Origin: Mesorhizobium sp. WSM4311
GTDB taxonomy: Bacteria; Pseudomonadota; Alphaproteobacteria; Rhizobiales; Rhizobiaceae
Assembly (NCBI RefSeq): GCF_002295115.1
Contig: NZ_NSFV01000015.1
Coordinates: 62,001-126,000, forward strand
Direction of reading: 5' to 3'
DNA: 64,000 nt
Position 1 is the stretch's first letter. Each line of letters opens with the position of its first letter. A program made the position numbers and the translations under genes. Positions 43,668 to 57,684 of the stretch are shown piece after piece. The notes under the pieces were generated by a model. That model was not told the DNA's origin. It did not search any database and was given only the letters and a program-made list of their open reading frames with translations.

Positions 43668-45062
43668 TCAGACCACCCTGACGTAGCTCGTCATGCCCGA
43701 TTTCTGGTGCTCGATGATGTGACAGTGCAGCAGCCAGTCGCCGGGATTGTCGGCGACGAAGCCGAGCTGAACCTTCTCGTTGGGCTGGATAAGATAGGTG
43801 TCCGAAATCACCGGCTGCACCGGCCGCGTCGAGGACGACAGCACCTTGAAGCTCATGCCGTGCAGATGCATCGGGTGCGATTGCGGTGTCAGGTTCTCCA
43901 TGTCGATGACATAGCTTTTGCCGAGCTTCAATTCGGCCAGCGGCGCGGTCGGATCGGATGTATCGCCTGGCCACGGCACCTTGTTGATGGCCCAGAAACT
44001 GTAGCCGAGCGAACCGCAGATGCCGTCGCTCGGGACGTTTTCCGCCGTGGCGCTGAGCGCTAGCGAAATATGCTGGGCGGCGGCGAGGTCCACCTCCGCC
44101 ACCGGATTGACCTCCAGCGGTGCAACATCGCGAACATCCCGCTTGAGCGACCTGCCCGTCGCGCGCACGGTCGCCAGGATTTTGGGCTTGGTGCCCCTGA
44201 CATCGCGCAGGCTCACCACCGCGCCCTCCTGATCGGGCATGCGGATGGCGAGCTCCATGCGCTGCCCCGGCCCAAGCAGCAAGGCATCGGGCGAAAAACG
44301 CTCAGGTACCGGATTGCCGTCCAGCGCCATCACGATCGCCTCGGCGCCGTCGACGCGAAAGGCATAGATGCGCGTGACATCGGTGATGGCGACGCGCAGC
44401 CGCATCAGGCCTCCGGCCGGCGCGTCATAGTGGGGCTGGTCGAGCCAGTTGGCGGTGCGCACCGTGCCGTAAGTACCGGTTTTCGCGGCATCGCGCGGCC
44501 GGAACTGGTCGATGAACTGGCCGTCGTCGCCAAGACGCCAGTCGCGCAGATTGAGGACGAATTCGGCGTCGAATTTCGGATCGTTCGGGTTTTCGACAAC
44601 GATCACGCCGGTCAGGCCGTGGCCCATCTGCTCCAGCGTATTGCAATGCGGGTGATACCAGAAGGTGCCGGCGTCGGGCGGCGTGAAGGCGTAGTCGAAA
44701 TGATCGCCGGTGTAGACGTAAGGCTGCACCAGGAAGGGCACGCCATCCATCTTGTTGGGCAGGCGAATGCCGTGCCAGTGGATGGTCGTGGGATCATCGA
44801 TGGCGTTGACCAGACGCGCCGCGAAGGGTTCGCCCTTCCTCATCCTCAGCACCGGCGGCATTCCGGCATCGCCGTAGGTCAGCACATTGTTGGTCGGGCC
44901 GATATCCATCAGCGAGGCCTGGATCTTGGCCGTCTGCAGCACCACCGGTTCCGGGCTCGCGGCGGCGAGGCTGCCAAGCCTGCCGATGGCCGAAAGCCCC
45001 ACTCCGGTTGCGCCAGCGATGGCGGCCGTTTTCAAGAGCCCGCGGCGTGTCCATCCGGTCAT
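43668..45062 (-). CDS. Multicopper oxidase family protein
   Basis: A 464-residue exported enzyme with a twin-arginine signal (TRRGLLKTAAIAGATG). The copper ligands are complete: IHWHG, FWYHPH, HPMHLHG and HCHIIEHQKSGM, the last with the Cys-His and axial Met of type 1 copper. Relatives oxidise Cu(I), Mn(II), phenols or other small substrates in the periplasm. It is preceded by a DUF882 gene on the same strand. No other copper-resistance genes are adjacent. Confidence 0.92.
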   Translation of the reverse strand: MTGWTRRGLLKTAAIAGATGVGLSAIGRLGSLAAASPEPVVLQTAKIQASLMDIGPTNNVLTYGDAGMPPVLRMRKGEPFAARLVNAIDDPTTIHWHGIRLPNKMDGVPFLVQPYVYTGDHFDYAFTPPDAGTFWYHPHCNTLEQMGHGLTGVIVVENPNDPKFDAEFVLNLRDWRLGDDGQFIDQFRPRDAAKTGTYGTVRTANWLDQPHYDAPAGGLMRLRVAITDVTRIYAFRVDGAEAIVMALDGNPVPERFSPDALLLGPGQRMELAIRMPDQEGAVVSLRDVRGTKPKILATVRATGRSLKRDVRDVAPLEVNPVAEVDLAAAQHISLALSATAENVPSDGICGSLGYSFWAINKVPWPGDTSDPTAPLAELKLGKSYVIDMENLTPQSHPMHLHGMSFKVLSSSTRPVQPVISDTYLIQPNEKVQLGFVADNPGDWLLHCHIIEHQKSGMTSYVRVV

Positions 45063-45203: not shown

Positions 45204-46829
45204 CTATTTGAAACTGGCGATGGGCAGGAATTTCACCGCGGAGCCGGTGAAGCGGCGGTGATCCGACGTCTGTCCCCGCGGCTGAAACCCGTCGAGATAG
45301 ACCTGCTCCGGCGCCGTGCGGATGAAATTGGCTGCAATGATGGGCGCTGCTGCCGCGCCGGTTCCTCCGGGGATGCCGCGTCCCGCCACGGGCGCAATCA
45401 CGGCGGTGGCCTCGGTATCGAGGCGTGGTTGGACACGATCGGCCTTGGGGCTGGTCCTGACACGATCCTCGGGTTTCGGTGCCGGGACGGCAACCTGCTG
45501 AGCGGCCGATCCATCAAGGACGGTATCGGGGTGGTGCATGGCCAGCAATGCAGCGACGGCATCGGCGGATTTGACCGCTTCCGGCTGACGCATCGCGCTT
45601 GCCTCATTCCGCGGCCGCCATGTCGGCAACGGGATGTTGAGCGCCACCATGTCCGGCGCGGCGCTCGCGGCATCCGTCTTGCCCAAGGGCATTTCGGCAT
45701 TGGCCACCACCGGCTTGGGCACGGAGAGTTCGGCCCGCGCCGTGGACGCGCTGGCCATCGCCAACGTTGCGTTTTGCGGGGTCGCAATGCTGGCCGTGGC
45801 GACGGCGCGCGGGGCGAAGGCGGGCAACGGCACCGCGCTGGGCGCCATGGCCATGACGATCGCTTCCGGCGACTTGCCCTTCTGCTCGGCGAGCGGTTCT
45901 TCGGCCGCACCGGCGGAAGCCATCTGGATGTCCGCCCGCTGGGCCTCCTGCGGCGGCACGGTGGCGATGCCTTGCCCCGCGGTCTTGGGTTCAACGGACT
46001 TGGCCGGTTTGCGTGGCGCGGGCGCTGCTTCGGCGATATCCTCGGACTCGTCGGCGCCGCGCCCGCCCAGAAGCGTCGCCAGCAGGCCGCGCGACTTGCG
46101 CTGGCCGCCATCGGCGCTTGCCAGTTCGATGTTGGGCGTGCCGGCGGCCTTGCGCGATTTGTAGGCGGCAAGCGCCTGGTCATAGCCGGGCAGCGGCCTG
46201 CCGTCGCTCGGCACATGCAGTGTGTTGCCGTTCGGGAAGACCCTGGCAAGTTCCTGGCGGCTGATGCCCGGCCAATGCCGCACATTGCCGACATCCATGT
46301 GAATGAAAGGCGAACCGGAGGTCGGATAATAACCGACGCCGCCGCCCTGCATCCTGAGGCCGATGTCGCGCAGCCTTTTCAGCGGCACATCCGGCAGGAA
46401 GAAGTCCATGGCACGGCCGACCATGTGCTGGCTCTCCCGGGCCACGCCCTTAGAGCGGCTGCGCAGCATGGCGTTGGTCGCCGGCGAGCGATAGGCGCTG
46501 ACGACATGGATATAGCCGGTCGAGCCGCTGGCGCGGTAGGCCTGCCAGACGAGGTCGAGCAGGCGCGGATCCATCCTGGTCGGCTCGTTGCGGCGCCAGT
46601 CGCGCAGCATGAAACTGATCTTCTTCAATCCCGCCTGATCGTAGCGCCCGTTGCGCTTGAAGACGATCTCCGCCTTCTCGCCGGTATGCAGATGCTGGAT
46701 CTTCAAGGCGCGCGTCTCTGCGAACGCACCGGTGACGCACAGGCAAAGCAAGGCGACGGCAATGGCCGGCAACCATGTCCAACGATGGCAGGCGCCGGAC
46801 GCGTTCTGTTCGCTTTCAGTCACGTTCAT
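45204..46829 (-). CDS. DUF882 (peptidase M15-like) protein with long low-complexity tail
   Basis: A 541-residue protein with an N-terminal membrane or signal segment (about residues 18-37, ending AFA-ET) and a DUF882/M15_2 domain (about 40-220). Metal-binding candidates are SQHMVGRAMDFF and SPFIHMDVGNVRHW, suggesting a cell-wall D,D- or L,D-carboxypeptidase-like fold. The last 300 residues are Ala/Pro-rich and probably disordered. The ATG at 46829 is chosen over an upstream reading to 46967 of poor composition. Usual DUF882 proteins are much shorter. Confidence 0.8.
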   Translation of the reverse strand: MNVTESEQNASGACHRWTWLPAIAVALLCLCVTGAFAETRALKIQHLHTGEKAEIVFKRNGRYDQAGLKKISFMLRDWRRNEPTRMDPRLLDLVWQAYRASGSTGYIHVVSAYRSPATNAMLRSRSKGVARESQHMVGRAMDFFLPDVPLKRLRDIGLRMQGGGVGYYPTSGSPFIHMDVGNVRHWPGISRQELARVFPNGNTLHVPSDGRPLPGYDQALAAYKSRKAAGTPNIELASADGGQRKSRGLLATLLGGRGADESEDIAEAAPAPRKPAKSVEPKTAGQGIATVPPQEAQRADIQMASAGAAEEPLAEQKGKSPEAIVMAMAPSAVPLPAFAPRAVATASIATPQNATLAMASASTARAELSVPKPVVANAEMPLGKTDAASAAPDMVALNIPLPTWRPRNEASAMRQPEAVKSADAVAALLAMHHPDTVLDGSAAQQVAVPAPKPEDRVRTSPKADRVQPRLDTEATAVIAPVAGRGIPGGTGAAAAPIIAANFIRTAPEQVYLDGFQPRGQTSDHRRFTGSAVKFLPIASFK

Positions 46830-47037
46830 GCCTTGCACATTGTTCTTGTTTCGGGCGATTTGACGACTTCGCCGCAAGCGGAGCCTTCTTTTCAAACGCT
46901 GGACACGCAGGCTTCGCCAGCAAGGCGGGCATCCGTCCTTCGAACTCGTCCTGTCGATGAACAGCATCTTGGTTAACGAATCGTGTTCGCGCCAGGAACG
47001 AACCTTCCCCGCCCCGGAATGACTTCAATCGACCGCT

Positions 47038-48174
47038 TCAGCGGAACAGATATTTCGAGACTTCCGGATTGCCGCGCCGCCACATGACATTGTCCAGGAA
47101 GTAGTGGTGCACGTTGATGAAGATCCAGGCGATGAAGAGGAAGAGCGACGAGCCGAGCACGGCCTTGTCGTAGGGAACCATGGCCGTCAGCGCCATCGGC
47201 ACCAGCCAGAAACCGAGCGCTCCGAGGATTGCACCGAAGACCACGAACGCCAGCACGCGCAGCCTGTACAGCGGTCCAAGAACGGACAGGGCCTTCAATG
47301 CCGGCCTCTCGACGGCATCCGCGCGGTCGCGCTCGACATTGGTCTGGTAGCGCCAGACCACGGCCAGATACTGCAACGAATGCATCGCCGGCACGACGAG
47401 CAGCCAGAGCGGGTTCAGCGTCACGAACAGGATCCAGGCATAGAGGGACACGACGTAGGCGACGACGCCGTTATAGGGCAGCGCGCCACCATGTTTGCGC
47501 CAGCGGTTGATGAACATAACGGCCGTTGCCGCCGAGGAGGCGGCGGCGATCGACATGGCGATGGTGATGAGCCATGGCGGCACCGCGAAGGTGTAATAGT
47601 CCAGACCCCAGAACTGCCTTTGGGTGATCACCACATTCGTCTGAAGCCAGGCGAACAGCCACACGGCGTAGCCGTTGAACAGCAACACCTTCTTGTCCTG
47701 ATCACTGAAGAATTTGCGCTTCAGCACGGCATCCACCATCAGCATGCCGTAACCCTGCTTGACGTAATGCCAGCCGACGAAAAAGCCCATCGCGTTTGTC
47801 GCATTGCCGAGCAGGCGGGCGTTGCCCGTCAGCGCGCCATAGGCAAAGAAGGCAATCATCGCCAGCGGGACGACAATGCCCGCGAGGATATAGCGGATCT
47901 GAAGGCTCCGGCCGTAACCCTGACCGCGCACCTTGCGCGCGAAATTGCGATAGAAGATCTGGTACGAATGACCGAAATGCGGCTGGTTTATGAGGTGCGA
48001 GAGCAAGAACATCGTCAGCGTCACGCTGGCTTCATACCGCAGCGGCAGGAAATACAGGACCGGCAGGATGAAAAGCGCGCTTCCGCCAAGCATGAAGAAG
48101 TCGATGAACGGGCCAAAGAGATATTTTTGCGGGGCGACTGAAGCCGGGGTATCCGCCGAAAGGTGAAGTGCCAT
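47038..48174 (-). CDS. Polytopic membrane protein rich in conserved-looking histidines
   Basis: A 378-residue protein with about nine or ten membrane segments. Histidines cluster at segment ends: SHLINQPHFGHSYQ, GWHYVKQGYGM, PAMHSLQYLAVVWRY and NVHHYFLDNVMWRRG. The pattern recalls membrane di-iron or heme proteins, but I do not recognise a characterised family. The ATG at 48174 has GGAGGA six bases upstream, an excellent site. It is divergent from the PAP2-type gene. Function unknown. Confidence 0.75.
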   Translation of the reverse strand: MALHLSADTPASVAPQKYLFGPFIDFFMLGGSALFILPVLYFLPLRYEASVTLTMFLLSHLINQPHFGHSYQIFYRNFARKVRGQGYGRSLQIRYILAGIVVPLAMIAFFAYGALTGNARLLGNATNAMGFFVGWHYVKQGYGMLMVDAVLKRKFFSDQDKKVLLFNGYAVWLFAWLQTNVVITQRQFWGLDYYTFAVPPWLITIAMSIAAASSAATAVMFINRWRKHGGALPYNGVVAYVVSLYAWILFVTLNPLWLLVVPAMHSLQYLAVVWRYQTNVERDRADAVERPALKALSVLGPLYRLRVLAFVVFGAILGALGFWLVPMALTAMVPYDKAVLGSSLFLFIAWIFINVHHYFLDNVMWRRGNPEVSKYLFR

Positions 48175-48332
48175 GATGCCTCCTCCCCCTGTGATCGGAA
48201 CGTCGTCGCGAGTAGATAGGCCGTCGATCGCATCCAACCAGCGGCGGGACGTGTTTAAGAACTAAGTTCGCTTGTTAGCAGGTTTTGCAGTTCTCTGAAA
48301 TTTCGAATATTGTCCGCCCACGGGGGTAGTGG

Positions 48333-49319
48333 ATGCTGGCTTACGAAGCTCCGGGGGTACGCCGATATGCGCAAATCATCGGCCTGTCCATCTGCACGTT
48401 TGTTCTGGCCGACTTACTCTGGCTATCAGTCAGCAACATCACGATCGATTCCTATAATGGTGTCGAACTGATCATCGCTTGTTCGATCGCTGGCGCTTAT
48501 TGGGGTGCCGGAAAATTTGCTGCCCTGATGGCAACCCGAAGCCAGTCTCGACTTTCCCGAGTATGGAAGGGTGCCGGCGCTACCTTCGAAAACATCGCGA
48601 TCTTCATGGCGGTATTCATCCCGATGTCGATTGTCAGCTGCCTGTTCATGTATCTTGCCGCATCGACAACCAGACCTCGCCTCGACTGGCTGCTCGTCGC
48701 CGGAGACAAGACACTTGACTTCGACTGGCCCTTGGCGCTCGGCTATGCCAATTCCCACCCGAAGATTGCAGCAGTTTTGGTGTTCTGCTACGAGGCACTC
48801 ACCTATCAGTTGCCGATGGTGGTGCTCTGGCATGCTGTCACAAATGCGCGGCTCCGGCTGCTTGAGTTCATTGCTATCCTGTTTGCATCGTCGGTGTTGA
48901 CCGCGATCATCATGGCCGCCGTCCCGGTGGACGGCCCCTACCTCTATTTCCGCCCGGCGCCTTCCCTATTCGACCACTTCACGAATGCCGGCCTCTCCCA
49001 TGCCGCCACGGTCGATGCGCTGCGTTCCGGGGCGCCTTTCAACTTCTTGATCTCAAATACAGTTGGAATCACATGCTTTCCCTCATTCCACACTACTCTC
49101 GGGATCATCATCACCTATGCTATGCGAAGGACCCCCTTGCTGATCCCGATTGCCTTGGTCAATGCGGTTATGATTGTGTCGACGGTGCCGGAAGGCGGCC
49201 ATTACCTAGTCGATGTCATCGGTGGAGGTGTCGTGGCGGTCACAGCCATCGTCGGCGTCGCCATCTTGACTAGCGCAAATCAACAAGAATTGGCACGGAG
49301 GATCCTGGCCCGAAGCTGA
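48333..49319 (+). CDS. PAP2-superfamily-like membrane protein
   Basis: A 328-residue protein with about eight membrane segments. The C-terminal half has PAP2 motifs CFPSFHTTLG and STVPEGGHYLVDVIGGG with the catalytic-type His residues; the first PAP2 motif (KxxxxxxRP) is not evident. It fits the PAP2_3 / inositol-phosphotransferase-like group acting on lipid phosphates. Base composition is more AT-rich than in flanking housekeeping genes, hinting at transfer. Divergent from the histidine-rich protein. Confidence 0.75.
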   Translation: MLAYEAPGVRRYAQIIGLSICTFVLADLLWLSVSNITIDSYNGVELIIACSIAGAYWGAGKFAALMATRSQSRLSRVWKGAGATFENIAIFMAVFIPMSIVSCLFMYLAASTTRPRLDWLLVAGDKTLDFDWPLALGYANSHPKIAAVLVFCYEALTYQLPMVVLWHAVTNARLRLLEFIAILFASSVLTAIIMAAVPVDGPYLYFRPAPSLFDHFTNAGLSHAATVDALRSGAPFNFLISNTVGITCFPSFHTTLGIIITYAMRRTPLLIPIALVNAVMIVSTVPEGGHYLVDVIGGGVVAVTAIVGVAILTSANQQELARRILARS

Positions 49320-49424
49320 TCGATCCGACCGCCGCCGAGAAGAGCACCATGATGACGCCGGTGCACCATGTGGTCGACGCAATGTTGACGGTTGAAAACA
49401 ACGCGAATGCGCCGAAATATTATT

Positions 49425-49770
49425 ACATGAAAGAACCTCGGCAGAAGCATTGGGACGCGCCGAGCGTATTCTTCATATTCGGGGAATGTCTGTCGAAGGA
49501 TGCCTTCCTCGTTCCGTGCGCGCCGGTGTTGCAGAAGAAACTGGACCGCGCCTAGCGCCACCATCAACGCTGAAAAACGCGAAAGGATCGCTCCAACAAT
49601 GAATACTGCCTCGTAGCGTCGGAGCCAGTAGAGACAAAACACCGAGCTAACCATACGAACAAAAATCGACCCGAGCGCCACCATTTGCACGGCCTCGTTT
49701 TCCAATGCAGGGGTGAAAAACATCGCAACGACGATCACCTTGCACGGCGGCCGAAGTGATGGTTCATTAG
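49425..49770 (-). pseudogene. Truncated, internally deleted isoprenylcysteine-methyltransferase-like copy
   Basis: The minus-strand translation matches the intact gene at 51021-51686 over the segments MFFTPALENEAVQM...VFCLYWL and VQFLLQHRRARNEEGILRQ...RVPMLLP. It lacks about 26 residues in frame, including the SGPYSIVRHPLY motif, and lacks the N-terminal half. The reading frame also runs past the position of the intact copy's stop. DNA similarity begins at 49427 (compare 51048) and fades at about 49768. It is a broken duplicate. Confidence 0.85.
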
Positions 49771-49888
49771 CGTGGACTGAAACGCGCTCCTTGAGGCAGG
49801 TCCTGAGCAGAGCACCACCAGAGCGTCTGAGATGGGCTTTGAGAGTGGCAGCTGCCATCTTGGCTGAGCCGGTGGCGCAGGTGCTGCT

Positions 49889-50935
49889 GTGATCTGGTCG
49901 CTGCAGATCCTTCGCTTCGTCGCGGCGCTGCTGGTGGTCTACGTCCATTCGGCCGAGATCGCGGCGGTCGCGACAGGATCGAACGGACTGCTGCCGCAAG
50001 ATGTGCAGCTTGTCGGCCGCGCCGGCGTCGACATCTTCTTTGTCATCTCGGGCGTCATCATCACGCGGATAGGAGCAGGTTTGAGCTGGCGTGAGTTCGC
50101 CTGGCGGCGCTGGCGGCGCGTCGTGCCGATCTACTTTCTGGTCTGTATCCCTACGCTGCTGATCGCGGCGAAGACGGGTTTCGGCTGGCGCAGCCTCGTT
50201 GCCACGTTCCTCTTTTGGCCGGCAACCGGCGTCATGACCGAGCCGCTTTTGCCGGTCGCGTGGACGTTGTGTTTCGAGATGCTGTTCTATGCAGCTGCAA
50301 CCCTGGTCCTCTTGAATCGCCGATCGATTTACGTGCTGATCGGCCTCTATGGCGCGGCGATGCCGCTCCGCCCCTTCGGCCCGGCTTTCCAGTTCCTTGG
50401 CAACCCCATCATCCTTGAATTTCTGATGGGTGTCGTCATCGCCAATGCGCCAGCGCGGCGGGCTGGCCTCTTGGGCATCCCGCTCGGCGCCCTTGCGCTA
50501 GTGATGGCCGGCCCGTTCGGAATCGCGCCCAGCGGCGGCACTCTCGATTTTCTCATTGGGACAGATGGCTTCCGGCGCGTACTCGTCTATGGCCTACCCG
50601 CAGCGCTGATCGTCTATGGAACAATGCAGATCAAGGCGAAGCCGAGTGTCTGGACCGAGCAAGGCGACGCGTCCTATTCGCTCTACCTCACGCACACGCT
50701 GATCGCCTCGGCAATGCTGCAGTTGTGGATGGCCTACCCCATTCAGCCCGATCTCATTATCCTGGTCACCACGGCGGCCTGCGTGCTTTTCGGCTGGCGC
50801 ATCCACATCAGATTTGAGAAGCCGCTCTTGGCGATGTTCAATCGCTTCGGTCAGAGATCCAGTCGTCACGGCCCGAAACTGATCGCGCCAGCCACCACCG
50901 CCCACGTAGTAGAAGTTGTGAGCCGCAAACGATAA
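49889..50935 (+). CDS. Acyltransferase family 3 (OafA/ExoZ-like) membrane protein
   Basis: A 348-residue inner-membrane acyltransferase with about ten segments. LQILRFVAALLVVYVHSAE near the N-terminus carries the family His, and RAGVDIFFVISGVII and WRRWRRVVPIYF follow, as in ExoZ acetyltransferases that decorate exopolysaccharide or O-antigen. The start is GTG at 49889 with a weak CAGGTG site. It lies between the deleted and intact copies of a methyltransferase-like gene, as if inserted within or next to a duplication. Substrate unknown. Confidence 0.87.
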   Translation: MIWSLQILRFVAALLVVYVHSAEIAAVATGSNGLLPQDVQLVGRAGVDIFFVISGVIITRIGAGLSWREFAWRRWRRVVPIYFLVCIPTLLIAAKTGFGWRSLVATFLFWPATGVMTEPLLPVAWTLCFEMLFYAAATLVLLNRRSIYVLIGLYGAAMPLRPFGPAFQFLGNPIILEFLMGVVIANAPARRAGLLGIPLGALALVMAGPFGIAPSGGTLDFLIGTDGFRRVLVYGLPAALIVYGTMQIKAKPSVWTEQGDASYSLYLTHTLIASAMLQLWMAYPIQPDLIILVTTAACVLFGWRIHIRFEKPLLAMFNRFGQRSSRHGPKLIAPATTAHVVEVVSRKR

Positions 50936-51020
50936 TGCCTCTGATAGGAACAGTCGCGCCCATCTCACCACCGGGCAAAGCGTAAAACTGCTTCCCGGGG
51001 TGCGTAAGTAGCCATTTGAT

Positions 51021-51686
51021 CTATGACCGACCGGAAACCGTGGCTGCATGAAAGAGCCGCGGCAGAAGCATTGGGACGCGCCGAGCATATTCATCATATT
51101 CAGGGAATGTCTGTCGAAGGATGCCTTCCTCGTTCCGTGCACGTCGATACTGCAGAAGAAATTGGACCGCGCCTAACGCCGCCATCAACACCGACAAGTG
51201 CGAAAGGATCATTCCGAGAACGAATGTCGCCTCGCAGATGTAAAGCGGATGGCGAACAATGGAATATGGGCCAGAGGTAACCAGCTGCCGGGCCGTAGCC
51301 ATGATGGAGAAAGAACGGCCGAGCCAGTAGAGGCAAAACACGGAGCCCACCATGCCGATGAAAATCAAGCACAGCGCCGCCATTTGCACTGCCTCGCTTT
51401 CCAATGCCGGGGTCACAAACATTGCAACGATGATCAGAAAAGTTCCGGCTACAGAAGTGACCCTTGGTTCGATTCCCTGCGCGGTTCCTTTTGGCGGAAG
51501 GCGACCGATCGTCAGGAAAACCTGCAGGCCGGACATAACAGTCGCCAAGACCTGATTGACGACGGCCAACGAATTTCCCGATGCGTTCTGATGGAAATAG
51601 GCGAATAGAGGAATCGCGCTGAGAACCGCCAGAACCGTCATGATACAGACGATCGCGATCCGGCCAAGAAAATCTTCATTCAACAT
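51021..51686 (-). CDS. Isoprenylcysteine carboxyl methyltransferase-like membrane protein
   Basis: A 221-residue protein with about five membrane segments and the ICMT/PEMT-type C-terminal motif: SGPYSIVRHPLYICE, then RNEEGILRQTFPEYDEYARRV with the conserved Glu pair and RVPMLLPRL. It probably methylates a lipid or lipid-linked acceptor with S-adenosylmethionine; bacterial substrates are mostly unknown. The ATG at 51686 (MLNEDFLGRI) follows a G-rich ribosome site. It is convergent with the acyltransferase, and a damaged copy lies 1.6 kb away. Confidence 0.82.
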   Translation of the reverse strand: MLNEDFLGRIAIVCIMTVLAVLSAIPLFAYFHQNASGNSLAVVNQVLATVMSGLQVFLTIGRLPPKGTAQGIEPRVTSVAGTFLIIVAMFVTPALESEAVQMAALCLIFIGMVGSVFCLYWLGRSFSIMATARQLVTSGPYSIVRHPLYICEATFVLGMILSHLSVLMAALGAVQFLLQYRRARNEEGILRQTFPEYDEYARRVPMLLPRLFHAATVSGRS

Positions 51687-51912
51687 TTTGCCCCCCCTGC
51701 AAAGCAGCACTGAAGCATTCCTCGCGTGCGCCGACAAGCAAATGGTTTCCAGAGCGTTAACGGCCAAAACGGCCGCCAATCGAGATGTGTCATCAGGTCG
51801 TCAAAGCCTCCCGGCCAGAAGGTCACGGCGCACCGGCTAACTGTTTGGAAACCATTGCCTTGTGTGAGGGGCCATGAAGTGGTTCACTCCCTCTGGTAAA
51901 TGACATTGCGAG

Positions 51913-52743
51913 ATGGAGCCGATGGACCTCTTTGGTCTGAAAACGCTGCTCATTTGCGCCCTGATCTTCGTACCGCTGGAGCACTTCCTCGCCCTGCGGA
52001 CGCAACAGAAGATATTCCGCAAAGGTCTCGGCACCGATGTGATCTACGCGCTGGTCAACGGCGCTTTCCTCAAGATCTGCATTTTTCTTATGGCGGCAGG
52101 GGCAATGGGCGTCTCGGCATCTTTGGTACCTGAGAAGGTAACGATGACGGTGAGCGGTCAGGCGACATGGCTCCAGGTCATAGAGATCATCATCCTGGCC
52201 GATCTCGGTGTCTACGCTTCCCACCGAGCGTTTCATGCCATCCCGGCGCTCTGGAGATTCCACGCCATCCATCACGGCATCGAGGAGTTGGACTGGATGG
52301 TTGCTTTCCGGGCGCATCCGGTCGACCAGATCATCACCAAGGCTGTCTCGCTTCTGCCTGTATTCTTTCTGGGATTTTCGTTGGAAGCCATTGCGGTATA
52401 CTTCGTCATCGCTACCGGGCATGCGTTGCTTCTACATGCCAACGTCAGGATGAACTTCGGGCCGCTCAAATGGGTGATCGCAAGCCCCCAGTTCCACCAC
52501 TGGCATCATGCCGATCAACGCGACGCCTACGACAAGAACTTCGCCAGTCACTTGGCCATCATCGATGCGTTGTTCGGCACTTTCCATATTCCAGGCTCCA
52601 GAATGCCCGAGAAATATGGTGTCGATGAGCCGATCCCGACGAATTATGTCGGCCAGCACGGCTACCCGTTCGTGCGCGGGACTCAACAGGGCCGGAATAC
52701 AGCGGATGCCGTCGCCAAGCCGACGCCCGAAGCGCGCGGGTAG
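51913..52743 (+). CDS. Fatty acid hydroxylase / sterol desaturase family protein
   Basis: A 276-residue di-iron membrane oxygenase. The histidine boxes are SHRAFH, FHAIHHG and FHHWHH, with LLHANV between, and about four membrane segments carry them. Members hydroxylate or desaturate lipids such as ornithine lipids, sterols or carotenoids. Starts are possible at 51913 (used) and 51922. It follows the methyltransferase-like gene divergently and ends 19 bases before the convergent cpaA gene. The substrate cannot be read from sequence. Confidence 0.88.
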   Translation: MEPMDLFGLKTLLICALIFVPLEHFLALRTQQKIFRKGLGTDVIYALVNGAFLKICIFLMAAGAMGVSASLVPEKVTMTVSGQATWLQVIEIIILADLGVYASHRAFHAIPALWRFHAIHHGIEELDWMVAFRAHPVDQIITKAVSLLPVFFLGFSLEAIAVYFVIATGHALLLHANVRMNFGPLKWVIASPQFHHWHHADQRDAYDKNFASHLAIIDALFGTFHIPGSRMPEKYGVDEPIPTNYVGQHGYPFVRGTQQGRNTADAVAKPTPEARG

Positions 52744-52762
52744 CCCAGCGCCCGTCAATTGT

Positions 52763-53287
52763 TCACATCGATGGAGAGCCGGGGACGACAAAGCCGTATC
52801 CGACCTGCAAGGCGATTATGCAAATCGACGCCACAGAGATAGGTACGCCAAACGGGACAACACCTTTGCGGTCAAGGTGTTGCACGTAGACGCGGAAGGC
52901 GCCTTGTGGGAGCAAGAATGGATTCTTCACAACCATGGCCGTGGCGAGGGCGAACAACAGCAGCAAGATGGAAAACCCGACAAGATCATTTCCACCGACC
53001 AGAAACGGCACGACTGCCATCAGCTTGACATCGCCTGCGCCGACCTTTCGCAGAACCCAGAACGGAAAGAGCCCCACGAACAGCACAAGCGCGGCGATGG
53101 CGCTCAGCCCCATGTCCCACCACGATCCGGACTGAAGCGACAAAAGCAGCAGCGACCCCGCCCCAAGGCAGAGCAGCAGCAGCGCGTCGCGATTGGCTAT
53201 CTTCTGTGTCGTGAAGTCCAGCCATGCAATCCTTGCGAGCAAAGGGATGGCAAGCGCTTTCAGCAACAGCACTTCGACAAGCAGCAT
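52763..53287 (-). CDS. cpaA: Prepilin peptidase CpaA/TadV
   Basis: A 174-residue A24-family aspartic membrane protease that cleaves Flp prepilins. The two catalytic Asp regions are visible: WLDFTTQKIANRD and GAGDVKLMA. It has about five membrane segments. It starts one base after the tadD stop codon, so translation is probably coupled. It is the last gene of the leftward tad operon. The Flp pilins at 57.7-58.4 kb are its likely substrates. Confidence 0.9.
   Translation of the reverse strand: MLLVEVLLLKALAIPLLARIAWLDFTTQKIANRDALLLLCLGAGSLLLLSLQSGSWWDMGLSAIAALVLFVGLFPFWVLRKVGAGDVKLMAVVPFLVGGNDLVGFSILLLLFALATAMVVKNPFLLPQGAFRVYVQHLDRKGVVPFGVPISVASICIIALQVGYGFVVPGSPSM

Positions 53288-55835: not shown

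Positions 55836-55836
<1 letters not shown>
54865..55836 (-). CDS. tadB: Tad pilus inner-membrane protein TadB
   Basis: A 323-residue F-domain protein with membrane segments near both ends and the domain LPDALDMIVRSLRAGHPTTV in the middle. It is the partner of TadC. Its ATG at 55836 overlaps the tadA stop codon (TGATG), so the ATPase and TadB are coupled. Length and order are standard. Confidence 0.93.
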
Positions 55837-57221
<1,385 letters not shown>

Positions 57222-57684
57222 AATCCCTTATACCCCTCCAGCGCACATTAGCGGAAACTAAACGTTAACCAAGCGTCGCACAAGCGCCGGGACGCCTCAC
57301 GCCCGGGCAATACTTTCAACATAGTTAAGAAGCGGCGCTAGCAAATATCGTTTTTGCTTCCGGCCTCCACGCCGTCAACCATCAGTGGAGCACCATACCT
57401 CGGAGCGCCCGAGTCCCTTGCGCGCTCAAGCACCGACACCCATCCCATAATTGGCTATAACCCCTTAGATATAAAGGAATATGCCATGTTGCTAAAATAA
57501 GGATAACTCAATTAGCAAGAGGACATAATTGTGAACGAATGGTTAAGAGCGCTTGAAAAATTAGACGAATCAAGGTGTTGCTGAAATTTAAGGCCGCGCT
57601 CAACTCGAAGGTTCATGTATTGGGAAGTTAAGGAACCGTTAATCCCGTTTGACTCTGCAATTTCTCGGGACCTAGGATCGAGAT
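57222..57684. other. AT-rich divergent control region between tadA and the pilins
   Basis: About 460 bases without a gene, clearly more AT-rich than the surroundings, especially 57450-57610. It should hold the divergent promoters of tadA-D-cpaA and of the pilin operon. It contains the CtrA-type box at 57628 and a near-match TTAA-N7-TGAA at 57543-57557. Confidence 0.7.
57628..57642. promoter_or_regulatory. Perfect CtrA-type box (TTAA-N7-TTAA) upstream of the first Flp pilin
   Basis: TTAAGGAACCGTTAA at 57628-57642 matches the CtrA consensus exactly, 120 bases before the pilin start codon. CtrA is known to regulate pilA in Caulobacter. A near-match, TTAA-N7-TGAA, lies at 57543-57557. The match and position are seen directly; binding is inferred. 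Confidence 0.65.

Follow-up and report, generated by a model that had tools for sequence, protein, structure and literature searches.

A broken methyltransferase copy, possibly the scar of a recombinational exchange, at a variable Tad-adjacent locus of Mesorhizobium

Genes and features of the locus

The window, a 64,000-nt stretch of the genome of Mesorhizobium sp. WSM4311, carries a row of genes in the order colap-PAP2-brokenICMT1-AT-ICMT1-FAH. Three genes of this region bear ad hoc labels: mco (43668-45062), dacd (45204-46967) and colap (47038-48237), the last of which has no Pfam match. The PAP2 gene (48333-49319, plus strand) encodes a PAP2-superfamily membrane phosphatase (PF14378, 102.4 bits) and is convergent with the broken ICMT copy. 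The AT gene (49889-50935, plus strand) lies between the two ICMT copies, where the first-pass annotation had placed an acyltransferase, and its product belongs to the Acyl_transf_3 family (PF01757, 77.2 bits for a cut-off of 31). The intact ICMT1 gene (51021-51686, minus strand) encodes an ICMT/PEMT-like membrane methyltransferase, and the FAH gene (51913-52743, plus strand), divergent from it, a protein of the fatty acid hydroxylase family (PF04116, 99 bits). A role in membrane-lipid metabolism can be predicted for the ICMT, FAH, PAP2 and AT genes. ICMT1 falls into the isoprenylcysteine/phospholipid methyltransferase superfamily at family level, with scores above both Pfam gathering scores (PF04191, 35 bits for a cut-off of 25; PF04140, 29 bits for a cut-off of 24). 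It scores 37.7 bits against the protein-S-isoprenylcysteine O-methyltransferase model NF040696, under the equivalog cut-off of 160, and 37 bits against the lipid A 1-phosphate methyltransferase LmtA (TIGR04571), far below the cut-off of 325; likewise, FAH reaches 129 bits with the OlsE model, under its cut-off of 475.

The second ICMT copy (49426-49737, minus strand) has the same orientation as ICMT1, and a base-level alignment with the intact gene (51436-51047, minus strand) gives 262 identical positions out of 312 (84%), so that the DNA-level similarity reported by the first-pass annotation was borne out. The extent that it gave, 49425-49770, was somewhat too long: the copy is present, but the similarity ends at 49737. 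A search for repeats within the window recovers the pair as two segments, one of 191 nt with 86% identity and one of 121 nt with 81%. The copy had also been described as lacking its N-terminal half and 26 in-frame residues, correctly: it covers approximately codons 84-214, codons 1-83 of the ICMT1 gene (221 residues) being absent, and a single 78-nt gap in the alignment, in frame, removes codons 125-150 (SFSIMATARQLVTSGPYSIVRHPLYI), a segment that includes SGPYSIVRHPLY. Having lost both the SGPYSIVRHPLY segment and the N-terminal part, this copy does not qualify as an ICMT/PEMT methyltransferase. The ORF that runs through it (49280-49999, minus strand) is still open, and a Pfam profile search of this ORF returned no match. 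We call the copy dead on account of its missing parts and not of its substitution pattern, which is at most compatible with decay: the changes private to it are distributed 8:6:12 over codon positions 1:2:3 (p 0.34 against equal numbers), and its pairwise dN/dS, at 0.20-0.26, does not clearly exceed the values between intact genes (0.13-0.29).

The longest exact run shared by the two repeats is 38 nt (49482-49519), a length near the minimum for RecA. Given this run, the two repeats could recombine with each other and so delete AT; among the loci compared, no case of such a deletion was observed.

The locus in other Mesorhizobium genomes

We compared the locus with 146 genomes of the genus Mesorhizobium, one per species. 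A Tad-adjacent locus was retrieved from each of the 102 genomes with a prepilin peptidase at E<=1e-40, and three further loci without prepilin peptidase brought the set to 105. The 102 Tad-adjacent loci contain full-length ICMT (38), PAP2 (22), FAH (18) and AT (13) genes, counted over the whole retrieved stretch, which places some PAP2 genes on the far side of tadA. The orders and strands of the four genes vary among these loci; in G114 and G116, for instance, the order is FAH-ICMT2-PAP2-AT with all genes on one strand. The AT family (E<=1e-60) occurs in 16 of the 146 genomes, in 13 of them near Tad genes; for the AT genes of G064, G082 and G104, no Tad gene was found within the 15 kb retrieved. 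We infer that ICMT, FAH, PAP2 and AT have been repeatedly gained, lost, reordered and replaced at this Tad-adjacent spot. In the literature searched, we found no description of a link between such predicted lipid genes and the Tad pilus in rhizobia. G010 has, beyond PAP2, a further and incomplete copy of the prepilin peptidase gene (L067 10226-10543), another partial duplicate at the same spot.

ICMT-like matches at E<=1e-30 are present in 41 of the 146 genomes, and members of the close ICMT family (E<=1e-80) in 24, the WSM4311 genome and 23 others. The ICMT closest to ICMT1 is that of G058 (92% protein identity), a genome in which the row comprises colap, PAP2, one ICMT, FAH and prepilin peptidase, without AT, and in which PAP2 is contiguous with the single-copy ICMT. 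The window aligns with G058 on both sides of the insert (blastn, 48000-49616 at 90% and 51016-53000 at 92%). The Tad-adjacent loci of G057, G064, G012 and G052 likewise contain one ICMT and lack AT. An AT-free arrangement with one ICMT, which the first-pass annotation had named as the trace that an insertion should have left among relatives, is thus present in five genomes, and AT therefore entered the locus. The host lineage is a patchwork with no closest genome throughout, since the ICMT is nearer to G058 and the genes on the colap side are nearer to G059 (protein identity to G059 versus G058 of 98 versus 97% for mco, 92 versus 88% for dacd and 98 versus 95% for colap). G059 itself contains decayed pieces of ICMT1 and FAH that adjoin a divergent second PAP2/ICMT2/FAH set (L062 8390-8988), an arrangement that looks as if a replacement had been caught halfway and that parallels the scar in the window.

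An AT gene is also present in G056 (93% protein identity), where the gene order is colap-AT-brokenICMT2-PAP2-ICMT1-FAH. The two genomes have in common an AT module composed of leader, gene and 3' tail (49738-50893, plus strand), and window positions 49731-50892 align with L058 11601-10455 at 90.4% (blastn), at a different position of the same locus. The window AT starts with GTG and that of G056 with ATG; a 2-nt gap near the 3' end shifts the frame of the C-terminus and replaces the last codons. Over 320 codons, dN/dS between the two AT genes is 0.17, and most of the history separating them was therefore spent under selection. Their dS (0.185) is below those of PAP2 (0.28), ICMT (0.34) and FAH (0.39) in the same pair of genomes, which fits a transfer of AT. 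The AT module ends with a 24-nt 3' tail (50869-50892, plus strand) that is also found at the PAP2 stop codon, and in G056 the tail stands at both the AT and the PAP2 ends. A search with up to three mismatches in G000, G056 and G058 found four sites, all at the Tad-adjacent locus, and we rejected the idea of a dispersed repeat. Because of this common tail, AT may once have stood at the PAP2 position, convergent with ICMT. The remnant between AT and PAP2 in G056 (L058 10226-10441) is a truncated ICMT2, 84% identical in protein to the ICMT2 of G059 and 43-52% identical to ICMT1 proteins; it is a parallel scar in another ICMT family.

These comparisons bear on the idea of an ancient tandem, in which PAP2-ICMT and AT-ICMT units would have stood side by side before speciation, G058, G057 and others having lost one unit while the window and G056 keep traces of both. 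The PAP2-like tail on the AT 3' end in both genomes is as this idea would have it, as are the tandem units that G056 carries in the opposite order (AT, broken ICMT2, PAP2, ICMT1). The middle remnant of G056 belongs to a different ICMT family, however, several independent losses would be required, and AT has a lower dS between the two genomes than the linked genes, so that we regard such a tandem as improbable.

A transposon carrying AT and duplicating its target site would account for the direct repeats that bound the gene, yet this is by far the least probable of the explanations considered. The repeats exceed 300 nt and are 16% diverged, the flanking sequence is derived from PAP2 and ICMT, and no inverted repeat of at least 16 nt joins the ends of the AT module. 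Besides AT, the ORFs of at least 90 aa in 49738-51020 are parts of two antisense ORFs of 239 and 182 aa, of which the former was searched against Pfam, without a match; neither a transposase gene nor terminal inverted repeats were seen in this interval. We therefore rejected insertion by a transposon. A plasmid origin was rejected as well: no plasmid record spans the region, and eight records match 2-9% of the query at 69-79%. As to a phage origin of AT, relatives of it are encoded on 193 IMG/VR stretches, the best three at 60-61% identity, and in the 80 of these 193 that were retained no match to any further gene of the window's locus was found. Among the predicted viral contigs of IMG/VR, L106, L107 and L108, of about 52 kb, carry AT relatives with 60-61% identity.

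A promoter-like box before ICMT, FAH and AT genes

The gap between ICMT1 and FAH contains an inverted repeat made of two divergent copies of a box, TAACN4TGGAAACCATN3CTTG, one 48 nt upstream of ICMT1 (51735-51759, minus strand) and one 50 nt upstream of FAH (51838-51862, plus strand), both matching at 18 of 18 positions. Nearly all box sites start with TTAAC, and the FAH box of the window with CTAAC. With a threshold of 15 of 18 positions, the box is present in 33 of the 38 Tad-adjacent loci with ICMT and in one of the 64 loci without it. All but three of 43 box sites precede an ICMT (21), FAH (17) or AT (2) gene, 34 of these 40 with a spacing of 47-53 nt; of the remaining three, one precedes tadA, one falls where a colap gene begins and one is unassigned. 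The full set of 105 loci yields 44 sites, whereas the motif in reverse gives none and 40 shuffled motifs average 0.3 (at most 6). Five ICMT loci are devoid of the box, and 14 of 16 AT genes and all seven PAP2 genes tested have background scores only, some of these box-less AT and PAP2 genes being downstream in apparent operons.

At 17 of 18 positions or better, the 146 whole genomes contain 36 box sites, in 31 genomes, for two matches of the reversed pattern. Every one of the 36 has an ICMT, FAH or AT gene within the next 240 nt; 35 are at the Tad locus and the last precedes the lone AT of G064, and no near-perfect box was found elsewhere in these genomes. The consensus was derived from sequences at the Tad-adjacent locus, so the presence of the box there is partly a matter of construction and its absence elsewhere is the informative part. 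When six whole genomes were searched at 15 of 18 positions, the box gave 33 sites and the reversed pattern 10. Of the 33, 13 are at the Tad-adjacent locus, at tadA or at the lone AT of G064, six correspond to a TTAA-N7-TTAA variant, and the 14 that are left are comparable in number to the control. In 297 sampled genomes of the family, five have a match to the box, two of them outside the genus; one of these two sites precedes an ORF that we read from its translation as MurA-like, the other is inside an ORF, and neither locus contains a relative of the query genes.

As in CtrA-activated alphaproteobacterial promoters, the box begins with TTAAC and ends with CTTG, which we read as −35-like. The CtrA consensus, as one source gives it, is TTAA-N7-TTAA (PMC9437464). 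The candidate box differs from it in its second half, which is GAAA instead of TTAA; most sites read TTAA-N7-GAAA and are not canonical CtrA sites. We thus treat the box as a candidate CtrA site, a lead and not a result. A very box-like variant of the TTAACCTTCTGTTAAACATGTGCTTG type with a perfect TTAA-N7-TTAA was found in all six genomes searched (e.g., L232 1501-1525); in G000, the variant precedes a DUF1465 gene, which we take to be rcdA. Only one exact TTAA-N7-TTAA occurs in the window, at 57628-57642, the expected number being 0.01; the tadA-like gene (55836-57221, minus strand) begins about 400 nt downstream of it.

The G056 AT leader carries a whole box (TAACCGCTTGGAAACCATCGCCTTG). The window AT retains approximately the last five nucleotides, CCTTG (49738-49742, plus strand), the box being cut at the junction with the pseudogene, and the site scores 11 of 18, within the shuffled background of 8-12. 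The ICMT sequence reaches 49737 and directly abuts the AT leader, and the overlap at the 49737/49738 junction is about 3 nt.

Mosaic structure of the broken copy and origin of the arrangement

On the columns of the broken copy, its identity is 84.3% with the G056 gene, 84.0% with its own neighbour ICMT1 and 82.4% with the G058 gene, whereas ICMT1 and the G058 gene are 94.9% identical on the same columns. The two parts of the broken copy have different affinities. The 3' part (49426-49517, minus strand) appears to belong to the host lineage, with 88 of 92 positions identical to G058, 87 to ICMT1 and 79 to G056, and the 5' part (49520-49737, minus strand) is probably foreign, being nearest to the G056-type ICMT: over 49518-49737, the identities out of 220 are 184 with G056, 176 with G052, 175 with ICMT1 and 169 with G058. 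A MaxChi analysis with G058 and G056 as parents placed a break at 49520/49517, on either side of which G058 and G056 matches are in the ratios 5:20 and 10:1 (permutation p 0.001), and six parent pairs gave p values of 0.0010, 0.0012, 0.009, 0.024, 0.027 and 0.19. Three of the four controls were non-mosaic (p 0.20-0.80), the fourth, the G059 remnant, being mosaic (p 0.002), and no break was found in the intact ICMT1 when G058 and G056 were taken as its parents (p 0.67). In a tree based on the 312 columns, the broken copy branches outside the group of ICMT1, G058, G057, G059 and G064 (UFBoot 92). The broken copy is thus probably a mosaic of two ICMT lineages, on evidence that is moderate because the copy is short (36 informative sites, 11 of them in the 3' part).

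The mosaic has to be weighed against a local duplication, in which ICMT would have been duplicated as AT inserted, one copy then decaying and part of it being gene-converted to the intact copy. The two copies are indeed adjacent, in the same orientation and similar at the DNA level, they agree at 87 of the 3' 92 nt, and ICMT1 ranks third over the 5' part, close behind G056 and G052. Nevertheless, G056-type bases make up 20 of the 25 informative ones in 49520-49737, and at 49472 and 49466, near the 3' end, the broken copy has the base common to G058 and G057 and not that of ICMT1, the gene from which the conversion would have come. Moreover, the broken copy is 84% identical to its neighbour and the neighbour 95% identical to the G058 gene, so the split between the copies seems older than the split from G058. 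Nor are the copies each other's closest relatives along their length, as simple duplication would have them, a result of moderate support given the few sites. Given the mosaic and the age of this split, we do not adopt plain duplication as the main account; we consider it unlikely, if somewhat less so than the ancient tandem. The insertion with duplication suggested by the first-pass annotation is therefore upheld as regards the entry of AT, but the accompanying ICMT sequence is probably foreign and not a plain duplicate.

We find it moderately probable, from the sequence comparisons above, that the broken ICMT is the recombination scar of an exchange that brought AT into a variable Tad-adjacent locus of predicted lipid genes. 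The ancestor would have had the G058-type arrangement, with PAP2 and ICMT convergent and FAH divergent from ICMT, and the donor would have been related Mesorhizobium DNA with AT beside part of an ICMT gene. A crossover some 90 nt short of the 3' end of the host ICMT would have produced PAP2, a hybrid truncated ICMT and AT, followed by a working ICMT and FAH, and the broken copy would have decayed after the event. The simplest route would be a single crossover with a molecule carrying AT and the 3' half of ICMT, which would leave a left copy without its 5' half, its lost end abutting the AT leader and the AT box cut; in this way the exchange may have severed the box from AT. Such a crossover predicts a left copy that is host-then-donor and a right copy that is donor-then-host. 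The left copy fits, and the reciprocal pattern in the right copy is not established: two of its sites, 51093 (opposite 49472 in the alignment) and 51087 (opposite 49466), fit a single crossover, and 51108, aligned with 49487, looks host-like and does not. Among the loci compared, with one genome per species, no AT-ICMT arrangement of the form required of the donor was found.

In Campbell-type or additive integration, homologous or homology-facilitated recombination leaves partial duplications. The locus resembles such cases in the direct repeats that flank new DNA, in one repeat that looks like a host/donor hybrid and in one junction almost without homology; it differs in that donor and route are deduced and the junctions are blurred by decay.

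As a scar, the broken copy is of an ordinary kind; the lipid-gene unit and its box are the better lead. Tentatively, and with less confidence than we place in the scar, we propose that the locus, in many Mesorhizobium species, holds an exchangeable Tad-adjacent unit for membrane-lipid tailoring (methyltransferase, hydroxylase, phosphatase and acyltransferase), whose own nearly invariant promoter box, TTAACN5GGAAACCATN3CTTG, would be a dedicated CtrA-like site travelling with the genes. If this is true, envelope lipid chemistry would be linked through the unit to the programme for surface attachment, and such units would be swapped by recombination inside the methyltransferase gene. The scar suggests that recombination in a shared gene may be a means of trading accessory enzymes, no mobile element having been seen here, and that a hybrid pseudogene and a severed promoter-like box are the trace of such an exchange. 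The box would offer a handle on the control of predicted lipid-modifying genes beside the rhizobial Tad pilus.
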